In this document: positions 32,946-57,739 of the stretch, piece by piece | Position numbering within the stretch: the stretch's first letter is position 1 | Layout of the letters: each line of letters starts with the position of its first letter | From: Branchinecta lynchi | Taxonomy: Eukaryota > Arthropoda > Branchiopoda > Anostraca > Branchinectidae | Length of the DNA: 64,000 bases | Direction of reading: 5' to 3' | Assembly (NCBI GenBank): GCA_023053575.1 | Contig: JAKZAP010000018.1 | Span: 14,102,202-14,166,201 of the forward strand | Program-made: the position numbers and the translations under genes | The notes under the pieces: generated by a model | What the model was told of the DNA's origin: nothing | Databases searched by the model: none | Seen by the model: the letters and a program-made list of their open reading frames with translations, nothing else

Positions 32946-32946
32946 C

Positions 32947-33801: not shown

Positions 33802-33820
33802 ATCTGTACTTTCTAAAAAC

Positions 33821-36493: not shown

Positions 36494-36637
36494 TTATGAG
36501 TATGAGGATGAAGTAATGGCCTTCCTCGCACAGCTTCGCTTGACAAGTCGGTCGAAACATTTTCGAAATTCTAGGTTCTTCCATCCATATATTATAGGGT
36601 TTATTGCCGATTTCCCCAGATACAGAACGACCGTTAT
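36494..36637 (-). CDS. GPCR terminal exon with TM7 (copy A)
   Basis: Minus-strand exon of 48 codons including the stop. It begins ITVVLYLGKSAINPIIYGW and has the intact rhodopsin-family NPxxY motif (NPIIY, residues 13-17). A helix-8-like segment (KNLEFRKCFDRLVKR, with a nearby Cys that could be palmitoylated) follows. It starts directly after a good acceptor, TTAATTTCTTTTCGCAG, in phase 0 and stops at TAA. It is identical base for base to copy B at 41351-41494. TM1-TM6 are not adjacent. The nearest same-strand partner is the TM6 exon at 56013-56123, and the phases are compatible. Confidence 0.8.
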   Translation of the reverse strand: MTVVLYLGKSAINPIIYGWKNLEFRKCFDRLVKRSCARKAITSSSYS

Positions 36638-36676
36638 CTGCGAAAAGAAATTAAGTTAGGGAACTGAAGTTACTCA

Positions 36677-36953
36677 GAGCGTGTTCTACGCTTCTAACAA
36701 CAGTAACTAGTTAAACTAGTGGTACTATTTTCTTTCCAACCTCGTGAGAAGTTACTGTGCTGACCGTTCTAACCTTGTCGAAATAGTAACTAATAGTGAC
36801 TATTTGCTTACCACGCTCGGGAGCGTAGTAGTTACGGATCTCTGTAACGTGATTGGCCGGATTAGACCGTGGCACGATCTTTTGCTGAAATAGGAAAAGT
36901 GTGTTCCTGCCTTGACGCCAAGAAGCCAGGATTCATTATGTCGGAACACGCCT
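36677..36953. mobile_element. PIF/Harbinger-like MITE (family P), in duplication unit A
   Basis: It begins GAGCGTGTTCTACGC and ends with a mutated terminus GGAACACGCCT. TCA flanks both sides (36674-36676 and 36954-36956). The same insertion with the same TSD lies in unit B (41534-41817), so it was present before the segmental duplication. Confidence 0.8.
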
Positions 36954-37191
36954 TCAGTTACAGGCGTAGAAGAATGAAGAATGACATAGCGGGCTCCGTA
37001 GCCTCGTAAGTATTGTTTTTTTTTCATGTGTTTTTGTTTTATTTTTCAAACGATCCTTGGGCTTGGAATATACATTTATTATTATTATTATTATAGTAAT
37101 CGTCGCGTTTGTCCTTCTGTCTGTCCAACTTTTCTGATACTCAACATCACCTAAAATGATTAACCATGGCACGCGCATTAAGGACCTGATT

Positions 37192-37377
37192 CAATAATCA
37201 ACTTAGGGGAAGGAAACAAACCTGTAATAATGTAATGTTTATTAGAGGTTTATTTCCTTCCCCGAAGTTGAACCAGAGCATTGACAGCCTGACGAGGACC
37301 CTTGCTAAGAAGGGCCGAAATATCGCTGTCGAAGAATCGTAGCTGACGTATCCGTTGTAAACATTGTTTGAATAAAT
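37192..37377 (+). mobile_element. Family S retroposon, 5'-altered copy, in unit A only
   Basis: Unit B reads straight through at the equivalent place (CAATAATCTAGGAAACC near 42050), so this ~185-bp insertion postdates the duplication. It has the family core (GACGAGGACCCTTGCTAAGA) and the 3' arm ending ACATTGTTTGAATAAA. The normal head and 5' arm are missing. Instead an inner segment is folded back: AACTTAGGGGAAGGAAACAA at 37200 is the near-inverse of TTTCCTTCCCCGAAGTT at about 37253-37269. Confidence 0.75.
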
Positions 37378-37495
37378 CTAGGAAACCTTACTTTCCCCGA
37401 CTTTCTTCTGGAGTGCGAGCACAGAGGAGATCTTCGCCGGCCGTCTTTCAATATCCGTTCCTCAAACAGTATTGGCTCTTCAAGTCCAGGATCTA

Positions 37496-37740
37496 TCACA
37501 ATCCTGACCTTGGCTTTGTTCTCGTAAAATAGTGTTGACGAGTATCTTCAACTTCATCATCCTGCAATTCCCGGTGCTGAAGCGTATCTTTGTTCTGGCA
37601 ACCCAACATTTTGCATAATAAGATTATCGTTTCGAGTGTTCGGCTAATGATTATCGTTTTCTGCTTTCTTGTGAAATTCCTCAAGCTCCTCATTCAACAG
37701 TTCCCAATGCTCAGACTGCAATGTATCTTGCTTCACCAAC
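37496..37740 (-). other. Two exon-like frames sharing a K-DTLQ motif
   Basis: Two minus-strand frames each follow an AG and end in a stop. The first is 37740-37643 (VKQDTLQSEHWELLNEELEE …). The second is 37594-37496 (NKDTLQHRELQDDEVEDTRQ …), whose preceding TGGGTTGCCAG is a fair acceptor. They look like a duplicated acidic, helix-prone terminal exon. In unit B (near 42190-42430) the second has an in-frame stop. No domain is recognised. Confidence 0.3.
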
Positions 37741-38256
37741 TACATATCTTTGTCATTGGTAAGAGGTTTTCGCTGGGATTTGTCCTCGTAAAAGTAGGCA
37801 AACTGATAAAGCCAGACTCACTAACGATCATTCTCAAAGGAGCACTGAAAAACCCTAATTATCGGGTGATGTCCTCCTCTTCTGAGGACATCTATGTTTT
37901 ATTGATGCATTAAATGTGCGTTACGACTTTCTTGCCGACAGCCAGTTATATTTTTGCTGGGCTAGAACCGGGGCCAAAATGTTGGTCAAGGATTTTGGAA
38001 ACCATTCCGCTCTCGATTCCGCTAACATCAGAAATGTCATGGTCGATTTAAAGGCCACCGCGAAGAGGTAGGGAGAGTACTGCAAGGGAGATCCATAATT
38101 TTAAGAGGGCTAGCTTTATGGTGCCGATGGATGACCAGGTTTTTTCGGCTATATCTTCTGCACCTGCATCATTCAACAAGACGAAAAGTCTCAACTTTTC
38201 CGTATGGAACTAGTGATGACGCGGAAAACGCGCCCTCTCCTGATAGTCTGCCCGCA

Positions 38257-40135
38257 GCACTTGCCCTTCGGCCAAGTGCCATATAGCGATCGCAATTTCT
38301 GTCCGTCCGTCGGTCTGTCCAGGTTTTGCTAGTTCGGGCACTTCCACATAAGCTAGGACGATGAAACTTGGCTGGCATATCAGGACCCCAAAAGATTAAG
38401 TTGGAAATAGTCACTTCCCCGATCCGAGCATCGTGGGGGGAGTAGGGGGAGGGGGAATCCGGAATATAGAGGTATTTATAACTTCTGAACAGGTGATTAG
38501 ATCGTAATGAAACTTGATATTTGGAAGAACCCCGTGTCTCAGATGACCCAATTTAAATCCGAACCGGATCCGGTGACTTGGGGGGAGCTGGAGGGGAGGA
38601 ACCGGAAATCTTGGAAAACGCTTAGAATGAGGGATCGGGATGAAACTTGGTGGGAAGAACAAGCACAAGTCCTAGACACGTCGTTGACATAACCGGACAG
38701 ATTCGGGCACTGTGGGGGGGTCGAGGAAGGGGGGGGCCGGAATTTCGGTGATTCTGCTATTTCGGTACTTCCAGATGTGCTAAGACGGCGAAACTTGGAA
38801 GACCTGTCAGGGACCCGAACGGATTGACTTGGTAATAGTCGTTTCCTGGATCCAACCATCGTGGGGGGATTGGAGGGATGGGGAGCCCGGGATCTGGTGG
38901 TATGCATAACTTTTGATCGGGTGATCGGAATTGAATGAAACTAGGCAAGTGGAAAGAACTATCGTCTCAGGTGTTCCATGTCAAGTCTTGGACGAATCAG
39001 ATATTTGTGGGGGGGGGGATTGAAGGGTGGACCGGAAATCTCGTGAAACGCTTAGAGTTAAGGGATTGGGATGGAACTCGTTGAGAAGAACAAGCATTAG
39101 CCTTAGATACGTAATTGACAGAACCAGATCGTATCGGGGCTCTGTGGGGGGAGTTGGAGGGTGTTTCCCGGAATTCCGGTGATCGCCAGTTACGATAGTT
39201 CCAGCTATTCTAAGAACAATGAAACTTTTCAGGCCTATTAATGACTTAAGGACCCGACATAATGCCCTAGGAAAACTTGTGTTCCTGGATCCGACCTTCT
39301 GTGACGAGTAGAGGGAAGGGGAATCCGGAAATCACTGGCTTCTGTAAGTTGAGAACGGGTGTCCGAACCACATGCTGTAAGTCCGAACCACATGCGGGCA
39401 GGTTTAGGAGAGTTGAACGAGGGGGGGGGGGGGGTACAGAATGGGATGCAAGTTGGACAGAATGCGGCCTTGATTTGTTATTTGGTGTCTGGATCGGATA
39501 TGGTCACGGTAGGGGAGGGGTGTGAAGTGGGAACCGGAAATTTGCGGATAGGCTATGTCAGAGATGGGACTTTATGTTTCCGATCGTATTCAGCCACTGT
39601 GGGGGGAGCTGGAAGGGGATTCCCGGAAACGTTTAGGCTCGCATAGGGGTCAAACAAGTGGAGCGATTTTAGTGAAACCTGGAACATAGAGAGCTCACAT
39701 GCCCTAGATGACATATTTTAGGGTCCGAACTTGTTCCGACCACGCTGGGGGAGGGGGTTGGGAAAATTACGGGAAGTTCCCAAAAAACGCTCAGATTTGA
39801 GTGAAACTTGATAGGTGCTAAGAGAGAATGCTTCAGAAGATCCATTTAGTAGTTGGAAGTCCGAACCAGATTCGGGCTCGGTAAGGGACGTTGGAGGGGG
39901 GTACTGGAAACTGTGTGGCATGTGTAGGGACCAAACGAATTGACCTTTAGGGTTGAAACTTAGAAGGTAGAAAAGTCATATGACCTCGGTGATCCGAGGC
40001 GACGGAAATGGTCAGACTTTAGTAAAACTAGATATCCTATTTCTAGGGCCGAACCGCATTTTTAGATGGCGGGGTATTTTTTAAGTACCACCTACTCGTA
40101 TCAAGTGCCATATGAGCTCGTAGCTCTTGTTTTTT
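38257..40135 (-). repeat. Family X element, copy X2 (reverse orientation)
   Basis: Reading from the right, it starts with the AAGAGCTACGAGCTCATATG phrase (near 40130) and ends with the hairpin GGCACTTG-GCCGAAGGG-CAAGTGC (near 38257). Between are diverged 250-300-bp units with GATGAAACTTGG and G-run motifs. Unlike X1 the units are not homogenised. Confidence 0.7.
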
Positions 40136-40600
40136 TTATGTCTGGGGTAGGCTTCGGTTGATCTCGGAAGATTTGTAAGCTGTGCTGTCAGTCTGAAGGC
40201 TAAAAGAAGAAACGTCAGTGACGAGGTATTAGACTAACTTTGAAGTCGCTAGTAAGGCCATAGGCGTGCTAAGATCTGACCTACGAGGTATGACATGTTC
40301 GTTACCTGAATGGTAACTTTAGAAAGTAAAAAGACGCACTGCAGGCTTCAGACTTACTGGAATCCGTTTATTTCAGTTCTTTGGCATATTCACCAAACAA
40401 AACAGATATGGTTCAGTTTTCGCAATTGTGAACGTCACAATTGAAAAATGTTATTGGCGTCAGAAGTATTGGTCCGTATCGTCAGTATAGTAATAAGATA
40501 AGAAGTTAATTTAATTCATATTGTTTTTTAGCTTCTAATTGTGCTATGATTGTAGCCTACTCTGTATCCTTCCAGGCTAAAAAATTATGTCCTATATTCG

Positions 40601-41063
40601 CGGAGTAACGAATTTCATCGGGTCTTCAAGCTTATTCAAGTGAGTTATTCAGTTTCCTTGGGTATGAATCGGTTCTGGATTTCCACGAGGTTTAATTGTC
40701 TTCTACTTATCTATAATATTGAAGTTTTTTTCTTTATATAGTCGTTTATGTATAGTGTTGCATTTATTTGTTTCCCTTTTCTTTTTGTTTCCAATATAAT
40801 TATGCTAAGTGATTAAATTATTGAGTCCTGCCACAAACAAATCTGTATCGATTTTCACGTTGCAGGTCTGTTATCATATTGAAATTTTTGTTTGGTAAAA
40901 TTTCATTATATGTTAATTTGTAAAAAAAAAGAAAAAAGTAAGTGATGGGTAACCGGACTGTCGTATTTCAGCCATTTTCGGTCATAGTTTAAAGGCCGTA
41001 AAGGAAATATTCAGCAACGTCAACAGTTAGTGTGTATTCTCGAATCTGTTGGAATTGCGCATC
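40601..41063. other. Junction segment between duplication units
   Basis: AT-rich sequence with no recognised gene. It contains a TTTCATCGGGTCTTCAAGC phrase and an AGTGATGGGTAACCGGACTG phrase related to dispersed sequences near 2340 and 22500. Confidence 0.35.
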
Positions 41064-41350
41064 CTTGATACACAATCATACAAATGAATAAATATTACAA
41101 ACTCTTTACTGTGTAAGAAAATTAAATGTTGGAAAAAATTTGTCGAGCTGCTTCCCGATTTTCCTCGAACCCTTCTCCTACGAATGGCCCCCGTTCTTGT
41201 CCACGATCCCATCAGTTTAGTCCTTGTTTGTACATAACTTCCCTGTACACGACTTTTGTCCAGGAAATCACTATATAAAGCTACCACAAGTAAAACAAAT
41301 ATTGGTGATGTTGCTAAAACTAAACAGATCCATTTGTTTCGCAAATGATT

Positions 41351-41494
41351 TTATGAGTATGAGGATGAAGTAATGGCCTTCCTCGCACAGCTTCGCTTGA
41401 CAAGTCGGTCGAAACATTTTCGAAATTCTAGGTTCTTCCATCCATATATTATAGGGTTTATTGCCGATTTCCCCAGATACAGAACGACCGTTAT
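41351..41494 (-). CDS. GPCR terminal exon with TM7 (copy B)
   Basis: The 144-bp exon and its acceptor are identical to copy A, including NPIIY and the stop codon. Sequence on both sides differs from copy A by substitutions and indels; for example, the nearby MITE and the 3' region both have missing blocks. Identity confined to the exon suggests constraint or local gene conversion. It may be used as an alternative terminal exon of the upstream GPCR gene or belong to a decayed paralogue. No other exon of a separate gene was found in unit B. Confidence 0.8.
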   Translation of the reverse strand: MTVVLYLGKSAINPIIYGWKNLEFRKCFDRLVKRSCARKAITSSSYS

Positions 41495-41533
41495 CTGCGA
41501 AAAGAAATTAAGTTAGGGAACTGAAGTTACTCA

Positions 41534-41817
41534 AAGCGTGTTCTACTCTTCTAACAACAGTAACTAGTAATACAATTTTCTTTCCAACATCGTGAGAAGT
41601 CACTGCGCTGACCGTTCTAACCTTGTCGAAATAGTAGCTATTTGCTTACCACGCTCGGGAGCGTAGTAATCACGGATCTCTGTAACGTGATTGGCCGATT
41701 TGACCGTGGCACGATCTTTTGCTGAAATAGGAAAAGTGCGTTCTAGCCGTGACGCCAAGAAGCCAGGATTTATTACGTCATGCGTACTAACTACAGTAAG
41801 TAGGGTGGAACACGCCT
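41534..41817. mobile_element. PIF/Harbinger-like MITE (family P), in duplication unit B
   Basis: Same element and same TCA flanks (41531-41533 and 41818-41820) as in unit A. Its first base is mutated to A and it has several internal indels. Confidence 0.8.
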
Positions 41818-42962
41818 TCAGTTACAGGCGTAGAATAATTAAGAATGACATAGCGGGCTCCGTAGCTTCGTAAGTATTGTTTTTTTGTATGTGTTTTGGT
41901 TTTATTTTTCAAATGACCCTTGGGCTTGGAGTTACATTTATTATTATTATTATAGTAATCGTCACATTTGTCCTTCTGTCTGTCCAACTTTTCTGATATT
42001 CCACATAACCTAAAATGATTAACCATGGCACGCGCATTAAGGACCCGACTCAATAATCTAGGAAACCTTACTTTCCCCGACTTGCTTCTGGAGTGCGAGC
42101 ACAGAGGAGATCTTCGACGACCGTCTTTCAATATCCGTTCCTCAAACAGATATTGGCTCTTCAAGTCCAGCATCTGTCACAATCCTGACCTTGGCTTTTT
42201 TCTCGTAAAATAGTGTTGACGAGTATCTTCAAGTTCATCATCCTACAGTTCCCGGTGCTGAAGCGTATCTTTGTTCTGGCAACCCAACATCTTACATAAT
42301 AACATTATCGTTTCGAGTGTTCGGCTAATGATTATCGTTTTCTGCTTTCTTGTGAAATTCCTCAAGCTCCTCATTCAACAGTTCCCAATGCTCAGACTGC
42401 AATGTATCTTGCTTCACCAACTACATATCTTTGTCACTGGTAAGAGGTTTTCGCTGGGATTTGTCCTCGTAAAAGTAGGCAAACTGATAAAGCCAGACTC
42501 ACTAACGATCATTCTCAAAGGAGCACTGAAAAACCCTAATTATCGGGTGATGTCCTCCTCTTCTGAGGACCTCTATGTTTTATTGATGCATTAAATGTGC
42601 GTTACGACTTTCTTGCCGACAGCCAGTTATATTTTTGCTGGGCTAGAACCGGGGCCAAAATGTTGGTCAAGGATTTTGGAAACCATTCCGCTCTCGATTC
42701 CGCTAACATCAGAAATTTCATGGTCGATTTAAAGGCCACCGCGAAGAGGTAGGGAGAGTACTGCAAGGGAGATCCATAATTTTAAGAGGGCTAGCTTTAT
42801 GGTGCCGATGGATGACCAGGTTTTTCTGGCTATATCTTCTGCACCTGCATCATTCAACAAGATGAAAAGTCTCAACTTTTCCGTATGGAACTAGTGATGA
42901 CGCTGAAAACGCGCCCTCTCACTTATAGTCTGCCCACAGCTCAAGTTTGTACGGGCAGGTTT

Positions 42963-44214
42963 TTATGGCACTTGCCCTCCGGCCAAGTGCCATATAGCGA
43001 TCAAAATTTCTGTCCGTCCGTCGGTCGGTCTGTCTGTACAGGTTTTTCTAGTTTGGGCACTTCCACATAAGCTAGGACGATGAATCTTGGCTGGCATGTC
43101 AGGACCCCAAAAGATTAAGTTGGAAATAGTCACTTCGCCGATCCGAGCATCGTGGGGGGAGTAGGGGGAGGGGTAATCCGGAATATAGAGGTATTTATAA
43201 CTTTTGAACGGGTGATTGGATCGTAATGAAACTTGATATTTGGAAGGACTCCGTGTCTCAGATGACCCCATTTAAATCCGAACCGGATCCGGTGACTTGG
43301 GGGGAGCTGGAGGGGAGGAACCGGAAATCTTGGGAAACGCTTAGAATGAGGGATCGGGATAAAACTTGGTGGGGAGAACAAGTACAAGTCCTAGACACGT
43401 CGTTGACATAACCGGACCAGATTCGGGCACTGTGGGGGGTCGAAGGGGGGGGGGGGTCCGGAATTTCGGTGATCCTGCTATTTCGGTACTTCTAGATGTG
43501 CTAAGACGACGAAACTTGGAAGACCTGTCAGGGACCGGAACGGATTGACTTGGTAATAGTCGTTTCCTGGATCCAAGCACCGTGGGGGGACTGGAGGGAT
43601 GGGGAGCCCGGAATCTGGTGGTATGCATAACTTTTGATCGGGTGATCGGAATTGAATGAAACTAGGCAAGTAGAAAGAACTATCGTCTCAGGTGTTCCAT
43701 GTCAAGCCTTGGACGAATCAGATCTTTGTGGGGGGGGGGTTGAAGGGTGGACCGGAAATCTCGTGAAACGCTTAGAGTTAAGGGATTGGGATAGAACTCG
43801 TTGAGAAGAACAAGCATTAGCCTTAGATACGTAATTGACAGAACCAGATCGTATCGGAGTTCTGTGGAGTTGGAGGGTGTTTCCCGGAATTCCGGTGATC
43901 GCCAGTTACGATGACTTTGCAGGCCTATTAATGACTTAAGGACCCGACATAATGCCCTAGGAAAACTTGTGTTCCTGGATCCGACCTTCTGTGACGAGTT
44001 GAGGGAAGGGGAATCCGGAAATCACTGGCTTCTGTAAGTTGAGAACGGGTGGTCCGATTCGAGTGAGATTTTATGGGTGATAAGAACTGATGACCTAGAC
44101 AAGCAAAACATGCGTCCGAACCACATGCGGGCACGTTTAGGAGAGTTGGACGAGGGGGGGGGGTACAGAATGGGATGCAAGTTGGACAGAATGCGGCCTT
44201 GATTGGTTATTTGG
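42963..44214 (-). repeat. Family X element, copy X3, 3' part
   Basis: The reversed X element of unit B starts at the hairpin near 42963 and runs parallel to X2 until GTTATTTGG (44206-44214), where the 4.9-kb insertion begins. Confidence 0.75.
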
Positions 44215-44218
44215 GGTG

Positions 44219-44780
44219 CGCGCCCCTACATAGACACGACGCTACGTAGACACGTCAGTAAGTGGACAAAATCCGACACTACATGGACAAATTTCCCGAC
44301 ACTACGTGGACAAAAAAAAACCGACACTACGTGGACACGACGGTACATCGAACGACGCTACGTAGACACGACGGTACATCGAACGACACTACGTAGACAC
44401 GACAGTACGTCGAACGACACTACTTAGACACGACGGTACGTCGAACGACACTACGTGGACACGTCACTACGAGGACAAAATCCGACACTACGTCGAAAAT
44501 CAAAAAGTGTCTACGTAGTGTCGGTACCTGTACCGTCGTGTCTATGTAGTGTCGGTACTTGTACTGTCGTGTCCATGTAGTGTCGGTACCTGTACCGTCG
44601 TGTCCATGTAGTGTCGGTCTTCGTACCGTCGTGTCTCTGTAGTGACGTGTCCATGTACTGACGCTTTTTTCGTTTCGATGTAGTGTCGTGTCCATGTACT
44701 GACGCTTTTTTCGTTTCGATGTAGTGTCGTGTCTTCGTAGTGTCGCCTGTGTGTTTTGTCTCTGTAGTGTCGCCAGTCTG
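44219..44780. repeat. Left foldback array of the composite element
   Basis: Forward units (GACACTACGTAGACACGACG, with GTAC and TCGAA spacers) run to about 44500. Inverse units (TGTCTACGTAGTGTCGGTAC) follow to about 44740. The middle can form a long imperfect hairpin. It is nearly identical over about 350 bp, and in direct orientation, to the right array. Confidence 0.85.
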
Positions 44781-44789
44781 TTAAAATTC

Positions 44790-45382
44790 TCCAGCGTTCT
44801 ATTTTAAGGAATATAGGATGTCTTGCTAGCTAGCTTCACTTTTGTTTCTTGGTTTGAGTCCGCCCATGTTTGTAGTCATGTTCGGCGCCCGGACAGAAGA
44901 TGGTGCTATGGGTTTGCGGAAGCCGTTTTATATATAATGGAAAGCTTGACGGTGGGAATCGGATTGCATGTCTCTGAGCTTGAGCATGCGCGGGTTAGTA
45001 GTTTGGGGTTGGGAAGATATGATAGGATGGTTGAAATTCTGACCAGACTTACGATTCACCAGCAACATTTCTTCCCCTAGGCTAGCTTAGGGATTCCGCA
45101 TGCGACCATATCCAGTCGGTTTTTCTTGAAATCAGTCGATTTTTTCAAAACTTTCGTTTTCTCCGGCAAAAATAGTCGGTAAAAATGACCGCCATTTGGT
45201 AAAAACCTTGCCCCCCCCCCCAACAAAAAATAAAATCTTTTGGCTAGTAACGCCTCTGATCCTGAATATCGTCAAGTGAACTGTAAATCACAGTCTGCTG
45301 ATTGTCCCCAGAGTCACCAAGGGTCACATCCCCAAGGACTTATAATCCTCATCAGTCAACACAATGAAAATACGCACCAATA
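44790..45382. other. Interior unique sequence of the composite element
   Basis: An open frame of 85 codons (44823-45080, plus) shows no recognised domain. A C-run lies at about 45211. Phrases near 45281-45345 (CACAGTCTGCTG, TTATAATCCTCATC) recur near 48000-48035. Confidence 0.4.
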
Positions 45383-46960
45383 TGCTTTTAAAACGGGATG
45401 TTCTAAAAAAGATAATCACATGATCAAAAGCTATTCTTCAGCGTGTTAAAAACAACAACAAAATAATATCGGAAGAAGGGACTAAATTGACTTTGCAGTC
45501 AGTTGAACTTTATCCTTTTCAATCGTAGACATCGTGACGGATGAAAACTTTGAACAATATCTTATATAATGTAGTTGGTATTAGAAAGCTATGCGTAACT
45601 TTCCAGGATTAAAATACCATAGATGACACTAAAAATTACTATGAAACTACCTCATTGTTTTACATTTTCATTTGTATCCGTCGCGTAAACAGTTAATCCT
45701 AAGTTAGAGCGATAGACCATCGACACAAACTTTCTTACCATCAGATTTATAGAAATCGAATACAACGTGCACCCATTTGCAAAAATTTCTAGACCCTCGT
45801 GAACCGATTCCTACTTACAAGTCCCTCTTACGTGATGGACATCAAGTTCACAGAAAACAAATAATGGGTAGACCAGCTAGCAAGAGCTGCAAAGCCCTCA
45901 TCGATGAAGATGATTGTAGCATAACAGCCGATCATTACTTACAAGTCCTTTGCAGTTTGCATATCTTACCACTGGGAACCAAATTGTTCTTACCATCGAA
46001 TACACCGGAAACAAATAACAGTTACACCAACTAGCAAAAGGTGCAAACCCCTCATTGCCGAAGATGATTATGAGCTAACAGTAGACTGTTTGCTTAGAAG
46101 TCCCCTACATGTCTCACAACTGGTATCGCCTATTTTTGGTTTCAGTGTGTACCTTAATACTGAAGTTGTCAACCCCTTGAAATTTTCAAACTGGTGTATC
46201 TCATGAAGGAATTTTTGTACTAAGAAATGGATGACATATACTTTGATCAACTCATCCACGGCTATCGATTGCCGTCGAAATTTTTTTCTACCTGTCTTAG
46301 TTCAAAAGTTGGCCAACTTTCTAACGTCACCACTTAGAAAGGAGCAAAGGATAAGCTCTAGTTTCTTTAGCAATGAGATAACTTTTAAAGTTTAAGAGGC
46401 ATGTCTGATACCATTTCTCTACCGCAAACCCAAATGCAAAAAAAAACACGAAACAATAGATGGCAGTAAATTTTTTTTTTTTTGTAAATTTTTTCTATTT
46501 ATCACTCAAAGAAGATATGTTGGCTGTGGGGCCGGGGAAATGCCGCATATATTTAACACTTATAGATTTTAGTCCATCTTCAATTTGAAACTGGTGCCTG
46601 CTTGCTTGCGTGCTAGAACGGAGCTTTCCACTCGAAAGCAGTAACATGGTTTGATGAAACGAAAGGTTCGCTACACAACTTCAGATAGTCCTCTCTGACA
46701 TGGGCTATATAACTCCACTTCACTTCGCACACCGTAGGCTCTGGCTCGAGGACAAGCAAAAACCATCCTCATTGGCCCCAGGCAAGAGTTCTGAGCTTTC
46801 CAAATTGTAATGTCATATTCATCAATCCGGCCTAACACTTTCCGTAAAATCCGCACAGGTTAGACCCTTACCAGTTACTAGGAATAAAATGAAATCGGCG
46901 GCATAGGAAACAAAAAAAAACACCTTAGGACAAAATCAAAGTGTTGCTCTCGCAACACAA
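45383..46960. repeat. Family R array element, copy 2
   Basis: It matches modules of copy 1 (16121-19912): GCTTTTAAAACGGGATGTTC at the left, AAAATACCATAGATGACAC near 45612, and the closing hairpin GTGTTGCTCTCGCAACAC at about 46941-46958. It has about one set of modules instead of four. Confidence 0.7.
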
Positions 46961-48640
46961 AAATGTAAATAGGTAAAATTAAAAGAATGAAGTTTCCCGG
47001 ATAGGCTTATCTACAAGACACAGTTGTGTGGATCAAATATTAAATTTTTGGGATCCCATCGTAACCTTGGTCTTGTTCTTTTTACCGTTAATTACGCGCG
47101 TATATCTTTGAATTCCGCCAGGGGATCTAGCAGATGGGCTGACGGCAAGAATTTACAGATTCACTCCCACAAGAGAGGCCGGATTGACCTCCAAAGAGGC
47201 ATAATTAGAACCCCACCAAGTTTTGTTGACGTTTCTGTTTGGAAGTTTTGATTGGTCTGAACTGGATTATCCTGAATATCGTCAAGTTATAGCTTGTTAC
47301 ACGGGGCCGAAACAGCGGCCAATTCTCGATTATCGGCTGATTTACGCTCGTACTTACCGGTTGAAAAAAACAAACAGCGGTCGATCTTCCAAATAGGTGC
47401 GTATTATTGAGATAAGGTGAATTCTCGGAATGCGACCTTTGATGTCTCAAGGGATAGTATACAAACCGTATTTAGGGGAATTAGGTCAAACTTGGTGAGT
47501 GTTAGGTCAATCCAGTTCAAATTCTGTCAGACCGATGTTGAACATAGCATGGTTTTTCATCCAAGGATTACTAAACGATTACGAAAAAGGTGCATCAGCG
47601 GATGTTCTGTTTATGCTTGATTTTCCCATTCAGCCGTCACTAAAAAGTGACTGAACAATAATAAAAGTTGCACTCTGTTTTCGTATTATTTATTTTATAG
47701 ATAATTATCCCTTATGTTCTCATATAAACATGAAAACATTTAAATTAATTTTATTTGCTTTATGAGTTAAAAGTCGCCTGAAATCTGTCAACTGTATTTG
47801 GCTGTGACACACCCTCGGACACACCCACAAGATGTTTTGTGTTAATTTCATACATTTTGTTACAAACAAAGAGAATATTCGAAATTTTGGAAGTTTTGCA
47901 GTTTTGCAACAGTTGATACGTCGTATTGAGCAGGTCAGCCGCTGTTTACGCGTTTATTTCGGTCCCGTGTGAACAAGCTTTTAGATTGAAAACCCTAAAT
48001 TACAGTCTGCTGGTCATCCGAAAGGGTTTATAATCCTCATCGATCGTGAAACCCGTGAAAATGACGAAAACCCGATGAAAAACCGAGATGAAAATCCGCA
48101 CGTGGCTGAGTTTGGATTATTTTTTAACCGCTAATTACACGCGTATCATCTTTGAATTCCGCCAGCGCTCCTAGCAGATAGGCTGCTGGCAAGAGCTTAC
48201 AGACTCGCTCCCCCCACAGAGGCCGGATTGGGTTCGGACTCCTAAAGAGACACAACTAGAATCCTAGCTCTTAGTTCCAACCAAGTTTGGTTTGGACCCG
48301 ACCATCCTTTCGGGTCTATTTGCTGATCATTGAATTCTGGAAAGCCTCCGCCCTCCCCTAACCTATGGGTCGGATCGCAACCGGACTTTCTGTCTATTTC
48401 AGGTCCTAAGCTTTCTTATGAGTGCCCGAAATCGAGATCCCGCAGACGCACAAACCAAAGCCAAATTTAGCAGATAGCAGAGACAAGGTTGGGGTGTCAT
48501 CTAGCGACTTTAGATCAAGTGTTGGCGTACGCAAAGGGGAGCAGGCAGAAACTTTATTGTTATTTTGAACTTAAACATGTAAAAAAAAAAAAATCCTGGA
48601 CAATATCCTAAGCTGGAATTTCGACATGGAAGAGACACAA
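46961..48640. other. Interior of composite element with a 150-bp direct duplication
   Basis: A family-Z end fragment (TTTTTGGGATCCCATCG, about 47043-47060) lies at the left. A segment with TTTGAATTCCGCCAG and AGAGGCCGGATTG occurs at about 47086-47235 and again at about 48121-48265. No recognised gene. Confidence 0.5.
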
Positions 48641-48649
48641 ATTTCCGAC

Positions 48650-49145
48650 ACTACAGGGACACGACTCTACATGGACACGTCAGAACGAAGAAAAACAAAG
48701 GCCCGACACTACGAAGACACGTCACTACGTCGAAAACGAAAAGGCGTCACTACATAGACACGACGGTATGTCGAACGACGCTACGTGGACACGACGGTAC
48801 ATCGAACGACACTACGTAGACACGACGGTACATCGAACGACACTACGTAGACACGACGGTACGTCGAACGACACTACGTGGACACGTCACTATGAGGACA
48901 AAATCCGACACTACGTCGAAAATCAAAAAGTGTCTACGTAGTGTCGGTACCTGTACCGTCGTGTCTATGTAGTGTCGGTACTTGTACCGTCGTGTCCATG
49001 TAGTGTCGGTACCTGTACCGTCGTGTCCATGTAGTGTCGGTCTTCGTACCGTCGTGTCTCTGTAGTGACGTGTCCATGTACTGACGCTTTTTTCGTTTCG
49101 ATGTAGTGTCGTGTCTTCGTAGTGTCGTGTCTACGTAGAGACATC
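48650..49145. repeat. Right foldback array of the composite element
   Basis: Same structure as the left array: forward units to about 48925, then inverse units to 49140. It ends CTACGTAGAGACATCATCCC at the TSD. Confidence 0.85.
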
Positions 49146-49150
49146 ATCCC

Positions 49151-49801
49151 GTTATTTGGTGTCTGGATCGGATCTGGTCACGGTGGGGGAGGGGTGTGAA
49201 GTGGGAACCGGAAATTTGCGGATAGGCTATGTTAGAGATGGGACTTTATGTTTCCGATCGTATTCAGCCACAGTGGGGGGAGCTGGAAGGGGATTCCCGG
49301 AAACGTTTCGGCTCGCATAGGGGTCAAACAAGTGGAGCGATTTTAGTTAAACCTGGAATGTAGAGAGCTCACATGCCCTAGATGACATATTTTAGGGTCC
49401 GAACTTGGTCTGACCACGCTGGGGGAGGGGGGGTGGGGAAGGAAGTTCCCAAAAAACCCTCAGATTTGAGTGAAACTTGATAGGTGCTAAGAGAGAATGC
49501 TTCAGATGATCCACTTAGTAGTTCGAAGTCCGAACCAGATTCGGACTCGGTAGGGGACGTTGGAGGGGGGTACTGGAAACTGTGTGGCATGTGTAGGGAC
49601 CAAACGAATAGATCTTTAGGGTTGAAACTTTGAAGGTAGAAAAGTCATATGACCTCGGTGATCCGAGGCGACGGAAATGGTCAGACTTTAGTAAAACTAG
49701 ATATCCTATTTCTAGGGCCGAACCGCATTTTTAGATGGCGGGGCATTTTTTAGGTACCACCTACTCGTATCAAGTGCCATATGAGCTCGTAGCTCTTGTT
49801 T
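49151..49801 (-). repeat. Family X element, copy X3, 5' part
   Basis: X3 resumes exactly at the second GTTATTTGG and runs parallel to 39478-40135 of X2. It ends in the ATGAGCTCGTAGCTCTTG phrase near 49782-49800. Confidence 0.75.
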
Positions 49802-50917
49802 TTTTATGTCTGGGGTAGGCTTTGGTTGATCTCGGAAGATTTGTAAGCTGTGCTGTCAGTCTGAAGGCTAAAAGAAGAAACGTCAGTGACGAGGTACTAG
49901 ACTAACTTTGAAGTCGCTAGTTAGGCCATAGGCGTGCTAAGATCTGACCTACGAGGTATGACATGTTCATTACCTGAATGGTAACTGGATACGGGCCTGA
50001 TAGCGACGTATTAGGTAATTTTCTGACCAGCAGATGCTGCATATGGTTGCACTGCTGGCTTCAGACTTACTGGAATCCGCTTATTTCAGTTCTTTGGCAT
50101 ATTCACCAAACAAAACAGATATGGTTCAGTTTCCGCAATTGTGAACGTCACAATTGAAAAATGTTATTGGCGTCAGAAGTATTGGTCCGTATCTTCAGTA
50201 TAGTAATAAGATAAGAAGTTAATTTAATTCATATTGTTTTTTAGCTTCTAATTGTGCTATGATTGTAGCCTACTCTGTATCCTTCCAGGCTAAGAAATTA
50301 TGTCCTATATTTTTACATGGCTTCGGCATGCTATTGGTTCTCTTCCTATTCTCCCGCCAAAAAGACAATATCTGTAATCTTAATGAAACTTAGCCGAGGT
50401 ACAGCAGAAGCTTTCGGCTTCAACTCCTTCTTTATATTTGTCGAATATAGCAAGTTGGAGGATGGCAGGCAGCAAAAAACGCTGTCTAAAATGCCCTAAT
50501 TGCCCAGGAATCGGCTGACTTCTAATTTATATCGTATTTGGAGGACGGTGATATGACACCAAGATACTTTGATCCGCCCATTGTAGTTTAACTTCATCTT
50601 AACTTCGCTCTACCTTGTACAGATTATTAACTCGCCCTGTTTAATGACAAGAAAATTGGTTTTGGATTTCGCATCCTTAGAAACCAAGTTGCTTATTTTT
50701 TCAAGAATATCGTTTTCCATAGAATTGGCAATCAAGAAAGTATAGAGTGTCGAATTTCGTAATAGAAGTCACTTCTGTATTTGATGGCGCAACACGGATA
50801 AATCCGCTTGGATTCGTTCCAACAAAATTTCGGCCTTACTTGGCAAGGGTCGAGAGACAAACGCTACCTTCAACCGAGGGGTCGACGACTCTCCCGGAAT
50901 GGTGTACACGTCTCGAA

Positions 50918-51310: not shown

Positions 51311-51403
51311 AGGTTATTGCGGAATGGTGTACATAAAAAGTTAGAGTCGTTGACCCCTCGCCTTCAACTTAACGAGTACTTCAGACGCTTTTATTCCATA
51401 ATT

Positions 51404-51529
51404 TTAAACAGTGTTCTTTTTCCTTCTGCCAGGTAAGATTTTCTTCATACATTCCTTCAGTTCTGTATCGTGCCAAGCATATATCATTGGATCTGAAGCA
51501 CATTTGGAAAAGTACAACGTGTTTACGAT
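51404..51529 (-). CDS. GPCR terminal exon with TM7 (copy C)
   Basis: Minus-strand exon of 42 codons with stop. It starts right after the acceptor CCTATTTCCAG in phase 0 and reads IVNTLYFSKCASDPMIYAW, with the TM7 motif as DPxxY (DPMIY, residues 13-17). HDTELKECMKKIL (helix 8) and a basic tail GRRKKNTV follow. A polyadenylation signal AATAAA (51390-51395, minus) lies about 9 bp after the stop, so the 3' UTR is very short. The TM6 exon at 56013-56123 ends in phase 0 on the same strand and joins in frame. DPxxY is a known variant of NPxxY in rhodopsin-like receptors. Ligand class cannot be told. Confidence 0.85.
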   Translation of the reverse strand: MVNTLYFSKCASDPMIYAWHDTELKECMKKILPGRRKKNTV

Positions 51530-51638
51530 CTGGAAATAGGATAACGATAAAAGTGGTCAGTAAATTAAAATGAAAGGTATTAAAACACTAGTTGTTTGGC
51601 ATACATGGAACGTAATTTAGCCCTGGTTATTTCGTAGA

Positions 51639-51823
51639 CAGGGCCGTATCCAGGGGACGGGCGGGCTAGGGGGTTCAATCCCCCCCCCCCCCGAAACATA
51701 AACAAATAATATTTTTTTTTTATAGGCTATATTTATTTTTTTCTATATTTATATAAAAAAAAAATTACTTTTCGGTCCGACCTGTAGGCAACGTTCCCCA
51801 AATAAATTTCCGGATACTGACGT
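51639..51823. mobile_element. hAT-like MITE (family H1), in a GPCR intron
   Basis: It begins CAGGGCCGTATCCAGG. C-runs and TTTTTATAGG follow, and it ends in a degraded terminus (CCGGATACTGACGTG). The 8-bp flanks TTCGTAGA and ATCGTAGG agree at 6 positions. Confidence 0.65.
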
Positions 51824-53125
51824 GATCGTAGGCTACAAATTTAGATGTAGAATGTGTGACGCAAAACAGGAGATAATTCGGGAATGAGATCCCAGAATGG
51901 GGGGGGGGGGCGTGAAATCCAAATAGATTGGTAGTGCGGAGTCTTAGAGGAGAGATTGAAGTTATGTTTGTTGCTTAGGTTACAACGCTTAGATTGGATC
52001 GTTCCACGCGGTTATAAAACATATGCCCGTGCCGTCTGAGATATCCGCGGAATGTGAGACGCAAGCAGAAGATAATTTGGGAATGAAATCAATAGTACTG
52101 GTGACAAAGCCTGAGAGGATAAATCTATGTCGTTTGTGTATCGCTTCGTGTTGTTTTGTTTTGTTTAAGTGTTATTTTTCTACTTCGGCATTCTGAATGG
52201 ATGAATGGATTTATTCATTCATTTCAGCGTTTTAGCGCCTATTCGGGTATGTCTTTGTTTTACGAACTAAAACGTAAAGCAGTTTGGCTGCTAAAAACTC
52301 GTATTTTGACGTATGACCTGCTCCAAATTTGCTCCACTCAATTTTTCAACATTCTTTTGTTGAAAAAAATGGAGTTATGAAATGAGAGTGATGAACTTGT
52401 GGATCGTTGATTTTCATTTTAGTATGTATGATAACGGGCAGCGAATATACATAAGAACAAATAATCTAATAGAACCTCCGTCTTTGGTCTCATGCAGCGA
52501 CTACGGATATCCTGATAAATTGAGCGGAACTAGAGGTACGTGCTTTGAGCTGATATCCGTCTACCTACCTCGTCGCCGCTGCGCATACCAGATAAAGGAT
52601 GCTTGCAGGGGTGGAGAGACCAGTCTGCAGCGAGTTAGACGTGACGTGACAATGGTAGACAACCAATCAGCTATGAAGGACGACTGAGACGGTGTTCGTA
52701 TTCTTCTGCGGAGTTGTACTGCGATATAGCTGTTTGTAGAGGTAAACAATTATGATGTTCTGCGTATCTCCTCCTCCGCTCGTTTTCATCGGGTATCAGA
52801 ATATATTTGACTCCTCATGGACGTATTACTGAGGTAGGGAGATGAATAACCTTTAGATTATTGGTTCTTGGTATACACTAATGGGTATCTGTGTGTTTTT
52901 CCGTATGTGTATGGCTATGGCTGAAGTAGATACATAAATTGCGTGCTAGCTGTGATCGAAGAAGAAAAGATAAATTGATAGGAAACTCAGACAAAGAGGT
53001 AAGTCATTAGTTAGCTGGAATAACGCCGACAGTCCCCATCCTAGGGTTATTGTTTTCGGATGATCAGTCCCAGATAGGTGGAAACAGACGTCCTGGCATT
53101 TTTCTGGGCTTGTCTGTCAACGTGT
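51824..53125. other. GPCR intron sequence, no recognised element
   Basis: Low-scoring open frames (for example 52382-52687, plus) lack domains. A short perfect-looking hairpin GGATGAATGGATTTATTCATTC sits near 52197, here quoted by its parts GAATGGA and TTCATTC. It is probably part of a LINE tail. Confidence 0.35.
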
Positions 53126-53129
53126 GTTT

Positions 53130-54850
53130 CGAAATCAGAATCAGAATCCTTTTACTTTTCCCAATATTCGTTACAATAGCCTGGGATGTCAAAAAGTTAA
53201 ATAGAAGCACGAAATAAACACATTAAAATCACTTTTGGTTTATTTTCATTGTTTTCGCTTCCAGGTTGTGATGCTTAACAAATATGGCGCAAATGATCTG
53301 CTGTACGGGTTGCTGTGGTTGATCGGTGGTTTCTGGAGAAGTGGGTCGCAGCGTTTTAATTTCAGTTTTAATTTCTCGGCCCGACGTGTGTTGCCGCTAG
53401 GAGTCGAAGCGGAGGCCGGTAGAATGTCTCGATGTACCTCAGATCTGAGGCATTACCAAATGACATGGTGAGATGGTGGCGTCGCTCCATGAGGGTTGAG
53501 ATTTGCAGTTGTTTGGTAATGTCCTCGTATGACACATATATCTGCCCAAGTATGATTTTGCAGGCTAGTTTCTGCAGAGACTCCAGTCTCGAGCTCTGGT
53601 CCTGTGACAGCATGGGGTGCTATACGTGACAGGCATATTCAGTAACTGGTCTGATGTATGTTATATACGTAGTTAGTATTGCGTCCTTAGTGAAGGCGAA
53701 CCTTCTTAACTTCGCAAAAATCTCAGCAGGTTTGACGTCTTCGAGACTATCTTTGACAAATGCGTTTCCCTACTGAGATCGTCGTCAAGATGGAGTCCAA
53801 GGATTTTGATAGTTGTGCTGGATCCTAGGACCTGGTCGGGAGGCGGGTTCTTCTGTTTCAGAAAACTGAACCTTATGAGGGTACTTTTTTCTGAGCTTTC
53901 TGTCAATTTAAGTTTTTCAGCCTCGTTACAAAGGGTGTCAAATGCTTCTCTGACAGGGCATTTGTCAGGTACGTCATTTATCGACCTCAGTATGGGAAAA
54001 GTTAAGTGGTCGGCAAACTTGAGCCTTTCTATGATCTTGATGATTAAGGATTTGATCACAATCGTGAAGCAGGAAGTCCCAAGTTTGCCACCTTGAGGGA
54101 CTCCACAAGTAATCGGTAGGAAGTCAGATACTTCGCCATTCTCCAGTTTTGCACACTGGACTCTTTGAGCGTGTTCCATCCTACTTACCGTAGTTACTAC
54201 GCATGACGACACGAATTCTGGCTTTTCGCCGTCAAGACTGGAACGATTTTTCTATTTTCCAGCAGGATCTCACGCCAGGGGCGAATCCGACCAATCACGT
54301 TAAAGATATGCGTAGTTACTACGCTTACTACGGTCCCGAGCATGGTAAGCAAATAGTAACTATTAGTTACTATTCCGACAAGGTTGGAACGGTCAGCGTA
54401 GTAACTTTCGTGAGGATGGAACGGAAATAGTAACTATTAGTAACTATTGTTAAAAGGGTGGAACACGCTCTTTGTGATAGGTAACTAGCGACTAACCTAA
54501 GGACGATTTTCCTGGCACCCATTATCTCTGCTTCTCTAAGTGAGATAGTCGAAAGCCTTGACGAAGTCTCCTATCAAGCAATCGATGAAGCTACCAGGTA
54601 GCTCGAGGCGTCTCAGAATCATATCCAGGTGTCTTACCAGGTAATGCACCGTGCTATACCCTGGTCGGAAGCCGAACTGCCTGTCATCGAGATTTTTGCC
54701 GATGTCGGCCAACAGCCAACGTAGAATGAAGGCTTCGAGTATTTCGGCAAAAGCAGATGTTCAAGATGGGGCGGAGATCTTTAAGGCCATTCGGTTGGGA
54801 TTTCTCGGTATAGGTGTCACCACCTATGGTTTCTGTAGCGGTGGTGCTCA
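53130..54850 (-). mobile_element. LINE RT fragment, interrupted by a MITE
   Basis: On the minus strand from 54850: ADIGKNLDDRQFGFRPGYST, then GDFVKAFDYLT and a stop, then the MITE (54167-54470), then CAKLENGEVSDFLP with GVPQGGKLG. KFADHLTF follows where the RT catalytic box FADD is expected. The C-terminal RLESLQKLACKIIL region lies at about 53590-53370. The 3' end is a (GATTCT)n tail at 53130-53150. FADH in place of FADD, stops and frameshifts mark a dead copy. It lies inside the 4.5-kb GPCR intron. Confidence 0.8.
54167..54470. mobile_element. PIF/Harbinger-like MITE (family P), inside a LINE
   Basis: Inverted ends GAGCGTGTTCCATCC and GGTGGAACACGCTC, with the 3-bp duplication TTT (54164-54166 and 54471-54473). 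Removing it joins the RT segments on either side. Confidence 0.85.
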
Positions 54851-55402
54851 TTTCTGTAAAATCATAAGTGCCGTGGTTTTTGTGTATTAATTGTACATTT
54901 TTTTTCAATACATACGTATTGTTTCCTTATGGAATTGTGAAAAGGGGGAAGATTATTTCGATTCTTTTCGATGGCCTATGTTACCTAGATGGAACACTCA
55001 GCAGAACATTAGGCAGAATATAGAACAACACTAATTTCGAACATTTTTGTTATTTTCTGGAACATTTTCGTTACAATAGAGAAACAATTCGGGGGGGGGG
55101 CGATGAAAGGGATTACCAGCATAACCCGCGGGTAGTTCCTGGTTTAGTTCTTTGTTTCTACTGTTTGATTTGTGTTTGAAGAACTAGGTTTTTATTTTTC
55201 TTGGCATATGAAGAACTTGATACTTCTGGACTAGAGAAAGAAACATGAAACTGAAAGCCCTCGAAAACATCCATAAATCACGACTGAGGGTGTTCCATTT
55301 GAAACAGACTTACTCGTCTCAGGCTATTTGAAAGTCAATGGTCCGCGTCAAACTGCAATCGATAAAATAGGTTGGAGCTGTCGGTGACCGAAGCCGGGGA
55401 TT

Positions 55403-55738
55403 ATGTTGTCCTCGGTTCCCCAATGTTTTTTTTCTACGCTCGCGATTGTCCATAATTTAACTCGTTCTGTTCCAGTACTAGAATCGATGAATTATTCAGA
55501 AATGACTTGTTCAGATGAAGCTCCCATTGCATTTGCTAAGCTCCAGCAGGTTCACAAAAGATTATTTTGCCAAATATTTGGCAAAATAATCTCCGTATCA
55601 TGGCAGTCTCATTTGTTTGAATTGGCGATTTTTCTTCTCCTTATTCTGTTGTGTTTAGTTTTCTCAGTTACTTTTCATTTACTTTATCCTTTACTCCAAA
55701 ACCTTCGCGTATTCAGTGTGTGGTTAGGAAGAAAATAA
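55403..55738 (+). CDS. Unidentified ORF with a hydrophobic C-terminal segment
   Basis: A 111-codon plus-strand frame. Residues about 87-107 (LFELAIFLLLILLCLVFSVT) would span a membrane. The frame contains a perfect 34-bp palindrome (55559-55592), which makes part of the peptide an artefact of self-complementarity. It lies antisense within the GPCR intron. No homologous domain is recognised. It could be chance. Confidence 0.2.
   Translation: MLSSVPQCFFSTLAIVHNLTRSVPVLESMNYSEMTCSDEAPIAFAKLQQVHKRLFCQIFGKIISVSWQSHLFELAIFLLLILLCLVFSVTFHLLYPLLQNLRVFSVWLGRK
55559..55592. repeat. Perfect 34-bp palindrome
   Basis: AGATTATTTTGCCAAAT followed immediately by its exact inverse, with no spacer. It matches no terminal inverted repeat noted elsewhere in the window. 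Confidence 0.9.
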
Positions 55739-56012
55739 ATTATTATTATAGTTAGAAGTTATTTACACTATCTTTCGAATTTTGCAAACTGCCTTCTCTG
55801 GAGCTTACCGCGAACACCTCACTCGTAGACAAAACGGTGTTGTACTAGAGAGCAATTTCTATATCTCGTGCCTCGTGACTATCAGTCGCTTACGACTGGA
55901 CAGCCCTGTTCTCTAAGATCTGACTGTTTCGCATGGTGGTTTCAGAAAGTGGAGCGAATTGTTCTGGAAAGAAATCCACGACGTGAGTAGAAAGTGATCT
56001 TGGACAAGTTAC

Positions 56013-56123
56013 CTTTTTCGCTTCCGAGAGTTCTATTTGGGAAGAATCGGGCATGACGTATCTCAACATGATGACGATCAGGTATGGCACGTGGCAGCAG
56101 AGTGTTACCCCCAGAATCGTAAC
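56013..56123 (-). CDS. GPCR internal exon with TM6
   Basis: Minus-strand exon of exactly 37 codons (111 bp). It lies between acceptor CGTTTTCCTTCATTTAAG and donor GTAACT, both borders in phase 0. It reads VTILGVTLCCHVPYLIVIML, which is TM6 with a C-x-x-P-Y version of the CWxP motif (CCHVPY, residues 9-14). The extracellular loop RYVMPDSSQIELSEAKK follows. It joins in frame to any of the TM7 exons (51404-51529, 41351-41494, 36494-36637). A small upstream exon (57709-57739) fits ICL3. The loss of the usual W in CWxP marks a divergent receptor. Confidence 0.8.
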
Positions 56124-56171
56124 CTTAAATGAAGGAAAACGTAAATCAGCAGGAGAACACTATCTTTCTGC

Positions 56172-56420
56172 GGGATCGACTAGAAAGAAGCGTGGCACGG
56201 CATAATGTAGGAGGCACGAGTACTAAAAAGAGGCGCGAAACCAAAAGGGTCCTTTCAGTCTTCAAAGTGAAGGGTGAGAACAATCTTTTAACTTTTTTTT
56301 TCTTTTAGGCTCTGGAGTTGCGAACTCTCACTTACTTGTCTACTTCTAGTACTTGCTAATCTATTCTTATTACTCGTGACTCCTGCGCCATGTCATACGT
56401 GCCTCTTTTTAGTCGATCCC
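56172..56420. mobile_element. Foldback MITE (family G), 9-bp TSD, copy 2
   Basis: Inverted ends GGGATCGACTA and TAGTCGATCCC, with a perfect 9-bp duplication TCTTTCTGC (56163-56171 and 56421-56429). At 249 bp it is half the size of the copy at 23861-24376. It lies in the GPCR intron upstream of the TM6 exon. Confidence 0.85.
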
Positions 56421-56466
56421 TCTTTCTGCTGGTGCATTTGGACCAGTTCTATCAAGCAAAGGGATT

Positions 56467-56660
56467 ATATGAATGAATGAATTTATTGCACGAAAAAACC
56501 CTTGGGGTCATGGCAACAAAACAAGAAAAAACACAACAAACTACAAAAATCGCTCTCTATGGGACAAACCAACGCGTGCATTCCCTGGGGCTAATTTTAT
56601 GATTTTTCATAAAAGAAACCCCACCAAGTCAGTTCAGTTCATTTTATTTTTGAAATACAA
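56467..56660 (-). mobile_element. LINE 3' end with (ATTC)n tail
   Basis: On the minus strand the sequence ends AATAAATTCATTCATTCATA, a poly(A)-signal-like AATAAA merging into ATTC repeats. Upstream is a 3' UTR-like region without recognisable coding. The 5' limit is a guess. Confidence 0.5.
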
Positions 56661-57708
56661 AGGAAATAAGCTCGTTAGGTAGGGGTGAATACCGAAAGTA
56701 AACGACAATCAAATGAGTACTTAAGTATCAAAACAAAACAAAAACGTTTATTAAGCCCAGCGCGAACTTTCTGGTCATAATGATGACACTTTTCAAACCT
56801 CGATTCTGGAAAATTCCAGAACGGCCAATGTGGTCTTATATTATAGACGTCATCCATTTAATAGCCACAGCTGGATTGTCAGTGTCCAAATGGACACTCT
56901 ATCTCTTGGACGACACCCTTATCTATCGCCTTCTTTTTTGAGGAATCAGCTGTCAGGATACTTTGATAAGTTTACTGTCATTAGCGTTATTTGTTTCGTC
57001 TCTCGGTTGTATTGCCTCTATGTGCTCTATGGCACCTTTCAGACATCCGGAATCTGGGGTGTCGAACACCCCAACTTCCAGACGTTTTTGGCCTCGCTTC
57101 GCCTTTAGATTCGTCTCGACAAAAACGGCTGTCTGGCATCCGGAAAAAAATATCTGGAAGGTGAAGCCTGGCTTTTGGCAACAAAATTTTGTTTACACAG
57201 AATATCTTAGTATATCTTATTGTTATGTTTATCTTACGAGAGCATGTTACAGCGTTTTCGTTTTTGTCACGAATTAAAGAATATAATTTGAGTGTTTTTC
57301 ATGTATCTCTTGACAGGTTGGGCTGCGAATTAGTTCGCACTAAACTAAAGGTTGTCTAAAAGTGGGCGTATTTCGACAGTCTTTTAAAATGTCTCGCTCT
57401 CATACTTTCCGAAGTATGTCTCCTTTTCTTTTGCTTTACCCCCTTTTAACCACGGCGCACAGAGTTTTCAAACATTTTGCGCCGAACCCCGCTTTGTAGA
57501 GCTCGAGGCTGGACAGATTCAACAAGGGTCGACAATAAAATCGCAAATTTTGCGGGGCAAGTATAATTGTCATTTTGGAAAAACGGTATTTCTGAAACAT
57601 TTTATCATTAAAAGATCATTTCTGGTAAGACTTGAAGTAACATGGATTCTATTCATGTAAGAAACGAATGGAAAATCTTATCTAAACTTTTCTTATTTGT
57701 TCTCATAC
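56661..57708. other. GPCR intron / unique stretch
   Basis: Plus-strand frames at 56830-57277 contain hydrophobic runs but overlap one another and have no domain. Nothing on the minus strand looks like another TM exon. Confidence 0.3.
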
Positions 57709-57739
57709 CTTACTTTCTGGACTACGACGCCTCTTTTGT
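57709..57739 (-). CDS. Candidate GPCR microexon (third intracellular loop)
   Basis: A 31-bp minus-strand segment between TATGTTCCCAG (acceptor) and GTATGAG (donor). In the frame that joins the TM6 exon it reads QKRRRSPESK, after one base completing a preceding codon. A strongly basic stretch directly before TM6 is typical of rhodopsin-family third intracellular loops. The peptide and phase fit well, but the exon is very short, so chance cannot be excluded. The preceding exon would have to end with two bases of a codon; I did not find it. Confidence 0.45.

Follow-up and report, generated by a model that had tools for sequence, protein, structure and literature searches.

A class A receptor gene of Branchinecta lynchi with candidate alternative last exons that each encode the seventh transmembrane helix

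Can a single G protein-coupled receptor (GPCR) gene exchange its seventh transmembrane helix (TM7), helix 8 and tail while keeping everything before them? The question is raised by a 64,000-nucleotide stretch of Branchinecta lynchi DNA (hereafter the window; assembly GCA_023053575.1, contig JAKZAP010000018.1, C9:14102202-14166201), in which the original prediction, made from the letters alone, described one TM6 exon followed on the same strand by three TM7 terminal exons, here called C, B and A in order of transcription, and proposed that these serve as alternative last exons of a common receptor body. We find that three phase-compatible terminal exons lie downstream of one shared body. From the genomic sequence, it appears probable that a choice of last exon exchanges DPMIY and a short basic tail (exon C) for NPIIY and a Ser-rich tail (exons A and B).

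One receptor body and its terminal exons

The region examined spans 134 kb, that is, the window plus 40 kb past its end and 30 kb before its start, and genome searches covered 575.7 Mb in 216 contigs; positions above 64000 are extended window coordinates, which lie outside the window on the flanking contig. A genome scan with Pfam 7tm_1 (PF00001, curated cut-off 30.5 bits) returned a minus-strand match (profile positions 1-118) at C9:14182525-14182872, which lies upstream of the TM6 exon and about 16 kb past the window end; this match led to the remaining body exons in the flank. A search of the flanks for TM1-TM5 exons had been proposed originally, and exons 1-3 were indeed found upstream on the same strand. 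The TM6 exon with its phase 0 end and the three TM7 exons with phase 0 starts, good acceptors and stops were likewise all recovered where they had been placed (Table 1). In the spliced translation, exons 1-4 of this one minus-strand class A receptor gene encode TM1-TM6. The introns within the body measure 7088, 2128 and 14741 bases, and those leading from exon 4 measure 4483 bases to C, 14518 to B and 19375 to A; because the intron before exon 4 is itself 14.7 kb long, distances of 14.5 kb to B and 19.4 kb to A are not out of scale. Every intron of the gene has GT-AG borders, and each spliced reading frame runs uninterrupted from its ATG to a stop codon, giving 313 amino acids (aa) with C, 319 with A and 319 with B.

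The body without TM7 scores 140.3 bits against 7tm_1 (profile 1-235), and this rises to 150.0 bits with C and to 154.7 with A or B, each covering profile positions 1-260 and exceeding the cut-off, so that each end completes the fold model. Fragments joining TM6 to a single end fall below the cut-off of 30.5 (TM6+C, 24.1 bits, E 2.9e-5; TM6+A, 28.4 bits, E 1.4e-6), and the profile matched none of the TM7 exons alone. Class A signatures are spread through the spliced translation, namely GNSLV (N1.50), LAVADLL (D2.50), TDRYIS (DRY), HVPY (P6.50), the paired Cys residues of TM3 and the second extracellular loop (ECL2; CLCRYF and PECDLY) and the (N/D)PxxY motif as DPMIY or NPIIY; receptor position numbers such as 6.48 and 7.45 were counted in the translation. 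By these features, the predicted protein is a class A (rhodopsin-like) GPCR. Among solved structures, its best matches are to a mixture of class A receptors, with adenosine A2b at E 1.9e-25, delta opioid at 1e-24 and somatostatin 1 at 1.7e-24. Comparison with 37 receptor loci (one counted twice) of the 146 matches in the 7tm_1 scan gave a best score of 93.2 bits at 26% identity, and no close paralogue was found among these 37. Searches of a protein database with an 84-aa TM6+A query (zero candidates with three shared words), with the two joined ends X-padded to receptor length (20 candidates, none at E <= 0.01) and with a 328-aa frame of the reverse-transcriptase region (1523 candidates, none at E <= 1e-5) returned no relatives at these thresholds; the database appears to contain few sequences related to this genome, and these nulls say little. 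NCBIfam gave zero matches, as did Rfam at its gathering thresholds.

All three terminal exons begin in phase 0 at a common intron position after a strong acceptor and are open to their stops. The tail of C ends GRRKKNTV and has no Cys after helix 8; that of A and B ends TSSSYS and has such a Cys. An AATAAA starts 9 bases past the stop of C. Within the window, the A and C peptides match at 34% identity over 32 aa (E ~2e-5), and outside the three terminal exons the best match to the A peptide is at E 0.16. With splice sites scored by a generic matrix, the acceptors of A and B rank 14th and that of C 38th of 3781 on the window minus strand, where the TM6 donor ranks 53rd of 3695; over 104 kb of minus strand, the corresponding ranks are 24th (A/B) and 59th (C) of 6071, with the exon 4 donor 72nd of 5839. 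In these 104 kb, 60 acceptors score at least 9.4, a threshold picked after the score of C (9.46) was known, and only three of the 60 open a 30-90-codon frame with [ND]PxxY, these being C, B and A.

Whether A or B might belong to some other receptor was addressed by searching for a second body. In the 134 kb, peptide searches found exons 1-4 in one copy each and the TM7 exons in three; the next-best matches were at E 0.87 for exon 1, 0.34 for exon 3 and 0.057 for exon 4, the last on the opposite strand, so that the earlier observation of no second TM6 exon near A or B extends to the whole window and 70 kb of its flanks. Searched with TM6+A, the genome returned 13 places at E <= 1, and no A/B-like exon above 30.5 bits, the best score beyond the receptor locus; this search detected C itself only at E 0.08, and distant relatives may escape it. 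The nearest other 7tm_1 matches reported on the contig lie 0.74 Mb upstream of exon 1 and 1.4 Mb beyond exon A, in a scan that scored the best 147 of 263 candidates and may miss short exons. Of the 40 hydrophobic minus-strand frames in the interval from 36.6 to 64 kb, 10 were compared with Pfam, and none of the 10 matched. A separate receptor gene owning A or B, a finding that would have spoken against the original prediction, was not found in the searches made. Two candidate explanations were dropped on these results: that A and B had been moved here from the end of another receptor by translocation (nothing similar scored above 30.5 bits in the genome search), and that a second body nearby had been overlooked (searched on both sides; each body exon single in 134 kb).

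Table 1. Coordinates of the receptor exons and of the tandem duplication (extended window coordinates)
Feature	Position	Strand	Description
Exon 1	80785-80326	-	ATG, TM1-TM4, phase 1 end
Exon 2	73237-73113	-	ECL2, TM5
Exon 3	70984-70865	-	end of TM5, third intracellular loop, start of TM6
Exon 4	56123-56013	-	TM6; both ends phase 0; last shared exon; donor AAG/GTAACT (slash, exon border)
Exon C	51404-51529	-	TM7 with DPMIY, helix 8, short basic tail; 41 codons and stop
Exon B	41351-41494	-	TM7 with NPIIY, helix 8, Ser-rich tail ITSSSYS; 47 codons and stop
Exon A	36494-36637	-	144 of 144 bases the same as B
Duplication copy 1	36078-40598		carries exon A; aligned to copy 2 over 4161 columns, 179 of them mismatched, with 25 gap runs
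Duplication copy 2	41061-50311		carries exon B; interrupted by 4936-base insertion 44215-49150
Longest identical run (193 bases)	36484-36676 (copy 1), 41341-41533 (copy 2)	-	exon A/B, acceptor, 10 bases past stop

Origin of the terminal exons

Exons A and B are, judging by the alignment of their surroundings, recent tandem duplicates. The two copies of the duplicated segment differ at 4.3% of aligned columns, and the longest run of identity between them is the one that contains the exon; the second longest has 145 bases. The exon itself has no changes in 144 bases, as against 48 in 751 columns (6.4%) of the flanks within about 0.6 kb (Fisher p 3.5e-4), and for the whole 193-base run, which was picked after inspection, the comparison with the flanks gives p 2.3e-5. 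This identity could be due to selection, to gene conversion or to the two together. Copy 2 also holds a 4936-base insertion (44215-49150) flanked by the 9-base target duplication GTTATTTGG, which occurs once in copy 1, at the empty site 39477. The insertion has long inverted, minisatellite-rich ends, shares internal sequence with repeats at 16.2-19.9 kb of the window, and resembles a foldback or Mutator-like element.

The relationship of A to C appears older. A phase-0 intron stands at the start of TM7, at position 7.37 by count, and A and C share its position and phase, a Lys at 7.45 and a spacing of 38 residues from P6.50 to P7.50. At 7.45, the 12 other receptors with a readable TM7 have Asn (10) or Ser (2) and in no case Lys; loci L001, L007, L021 and L023 gave no row in this comparison, and L021 and L023 show Asn in a separate comparison. 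Because these four features are common to both exons, descent of A and C from a single exon through an old duplication is favoured, though each could also have arrived with a paralogous gene. All nine of the other TM6/TM7 matches from the genome search (L019-L027) carry both helices in one intron-free frame, two of them being weak matches (E 0.04 and 0.08) and one having a stop in its tail; an intron before TM7 is therefore not usual in this genome. The Lys in TM7 (GKSA) could recall an opsin, but counting from P7.50 places it at 7.45 and not at 7.43, and that interpretation was dropped.

Several other elements were recorded nearby and elsewhere in the genome. On the minus strand at 31210-34719 lies a reverse-transcriptase element spread over several frames, with endonuclease matches in two frames (PF03372 and PF14529, below cut-off) and no Pfam match in two longer frames. 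The intron between the TM6 exon and C holds a minus-strand RVT_1 fragment at 53709-54251 (26.5 bits, cut-off 29.6), and a tandem array with a period of about 281 bases and copies about 95% identical occupies 29074-30760. On another contig, two near-identical receptor copies lie about 125 kb apart (C6:5142674-5143477 and C6:5267500-5268744); the latter has in-frame stop codons and looks like a decaying copy of the former.

Alternative ends or other explanations

If the exons are used as alternative last exons, splicing of exon 4 to C, the nearest end, would take place when its acceptor and AATAAA are recognised, and early polyadenylation would then yield a 313-aa receptor with DPMIY and a basic tail poor in Ser and Thr. 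Skipping of C would carry splicing onward to B or A and give the same 319-aa receptor with NPIIY, which would add the Cys after helix 8 and the Ser/Thr cluster TSSSYS, a candidate kinase or arrestin site whose Ser/Thr spacing fits an arrestin code. The choice of end would alter coupling, signalling and desensitisation while the outer, TM1-TM6 part is kept. Since the A and B proteins are equal, a choice between these two could matter only through the 3' untranslated region (UTR). More tentatively, a TM7-only switch might toggle one ligand-binding body between weak arrestin recruitment (DPxxY without the cluster) and strong recruitment (NPxxY with the Ser/Thr cluster), with position 7.49 altering activation. 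Under this possible extension, the NPxxY exon would have been duplicated later and its copies preserved unchanged through selection or conversion, so that this end is used more often or has a 3' UTR of its own, and the intron at 7.37, absent in the other receptors compared, would have made TM7 replaceable.

Several points weigh against alternative ends. The junctions from exon 4 to A, B and C are predictions from genomic sequence, and an AATAAA so near the stop of C would give a very short 3' UTR. Exon C has no duplicate against which selection on it could be gauged. For A and B, the silent sites (34.7) are unchanged too, the chance of no change being 0.10, as are 49 adjoining non-coding bases (P 0.04); because silent and non-coding bases are unchanged, part of the identity may reflect gene conversion or the youth of this stretch rather than protein-level selection. 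A further segment, 37623-38144 (42304-42825 in copy 2), is nearly as undiverged, with identical runs of 133, 133, 145 and 108 bases, and Pfam gave no coding signal there in the one frame tested. Finally, the body has H at 6.48 and T at 5.50 instead of W6.48 and P5.50, which is unusual for class A, in which these two residues are usual and not universal.

The exons are also unequal (154.7 bits with A/B against 150.0 with C; acceptors 24th against 59th of 6071), they sit in a region full of repeats and broken reverse transcriptases where exon debris is to be expected, and their use in transcripts is predicted from sequence, all of which would suit a gene in which only one TM7 type works, either C with A and B as leftovers or A/B with C as a relic or unused intronic exon. 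We regard this as rather unlikely, given that A, B and C all have open frames, TM7 signatures, a fitting phase and strong acceptors, and that a relic should decay, while A and B show 0 of 144 changes against 6.4% in the flanks. The duplication might instead be an assembly artefact that sets two haplotypes end to end, A and B then being one exon. Mismatch of 4.3%, 25 gap runs and an identical exon fit alleles of a very diverse species, as does a 4936-base insertion with its 9-base target duplication in one copy that is missing from the other. This we think unlikely: the contig that contains the two copies is 21.9 Mb long, no other adjacent pair of kilobase-sized segments in the 134 kb has the look of haplotypes, and the other long matches there are dispersed repeats or short-period arrays. 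Such an artefact is compatible with alternative ends: with two haplotypes as the copies, the unchanged exon would point to conservation between alleles, and the number of ends would be two.

Very improbable, in our view, is that A and B belong to a second, interleaved receptor gene with its own TM1-TM6 exons elsewhere on the strand. Ends that share 34% identity over 32 aa, C on one side and A/B on the other, are as divergent as those of two receptors could be, but each body exon is single in the 134 kb, no other 7tm_1 match was reported within 0.74 Mb upstream of exon 1 or 1.4 Mb beyond A among the best 147 of 263 candidates, and none of the 10 hydrophobic frames scanned (of 40) matched Pfam. 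Of the original prediction, then, one body with several TM7 ends is strengthened in that the body was found and is single in 134 kb, and that the genome search returned no other place with an A/B-like exon scoring above 30.5 bits. Three alternative ends become two at the level of protein, since the 47 residues of A are also those of B, and a copy number of three is less secure than two, A and B arising from a recent tandem duplication or from two haplotypes.

Comparison with known receptors

By its sequence, the locus fits a known kind, the GPCR with alternative last exons. In the Drosophila gene OAMB, also a single class A receptor gene, the isoforms K3 and AS arise from a choice between last exons by which the C-terminal end, TM7 included, is exchanged, and in cell lines they couple differently, to Ca2+ only or to Ca2+ and cyclic AMP (PMC2650798). 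Unlike in the present gene, where TM6 is common to all ends, the OAMB change begins in the third cytoplasmic loop and includes TM6; OAMB is moreover supported by transcripts, whereas the present receptor is known from the genome and has one alternative exon further duplicated. The honeybee receptor AmOARbeta2 has several alternative 3' coding ends, and cold stress shifts the abundance of some isoforms; two of its transcripts, X1A and X1B, specify the same receptor protein, a parallel to what is expected of A and B, but its variation consists of unique C-termini and a form without two membrane domains, not a TM7-only exchange (PMC9551396).

The consequence proposed here has been described for the Aplysia tachykinin-related peptide receptor, in which one body carries alternative C-terminal ends with phosphorylation-dependent or -independent desensitisation, although there TM7 is common and only the tail after it varies (PMC11365428). 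Drosophila Gr39a, from another receptor family, similarly uses tandem-duplicated exons by alternative splicing, some copies having been gene-converted, but is a mirror image with alternative TM1-TM6 exons and one TM7 end (PMC2204066). In the rat histamine H3 receptor, splicing likewise replaces sequence after TM6, yet the resulting isoforms lose TM7 and are dominant negative, whereas here each end supplies a TM7 (PMC11274711). A literature search, limited for subscription papers, found no description of a TM7-only exchange by alternative last exons. Insect Octbeta3-type receptors may have ends that differ in TM7. As predicted from its sequence, the features that are this locus's own are the exchange of TM7, helix 8 and tail with TM6 kept, and the duplicated, identical end.

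Alternative receptor ends are already known, and the general principle is not new. Nevertheless, if transcripts confirm the junctions, one gene would give two receptors with a common TM1-TM6 and a different signal-passing helix and tail. Such a gene would offer a natural experiment on the contributions of TM7, helix 8 and the tail, in which one body carries either D7.49 or N7.49 and a tail either bare or phosphorylatable, and would show exon duplication diversifying signalling without duplication of the receptor gene.

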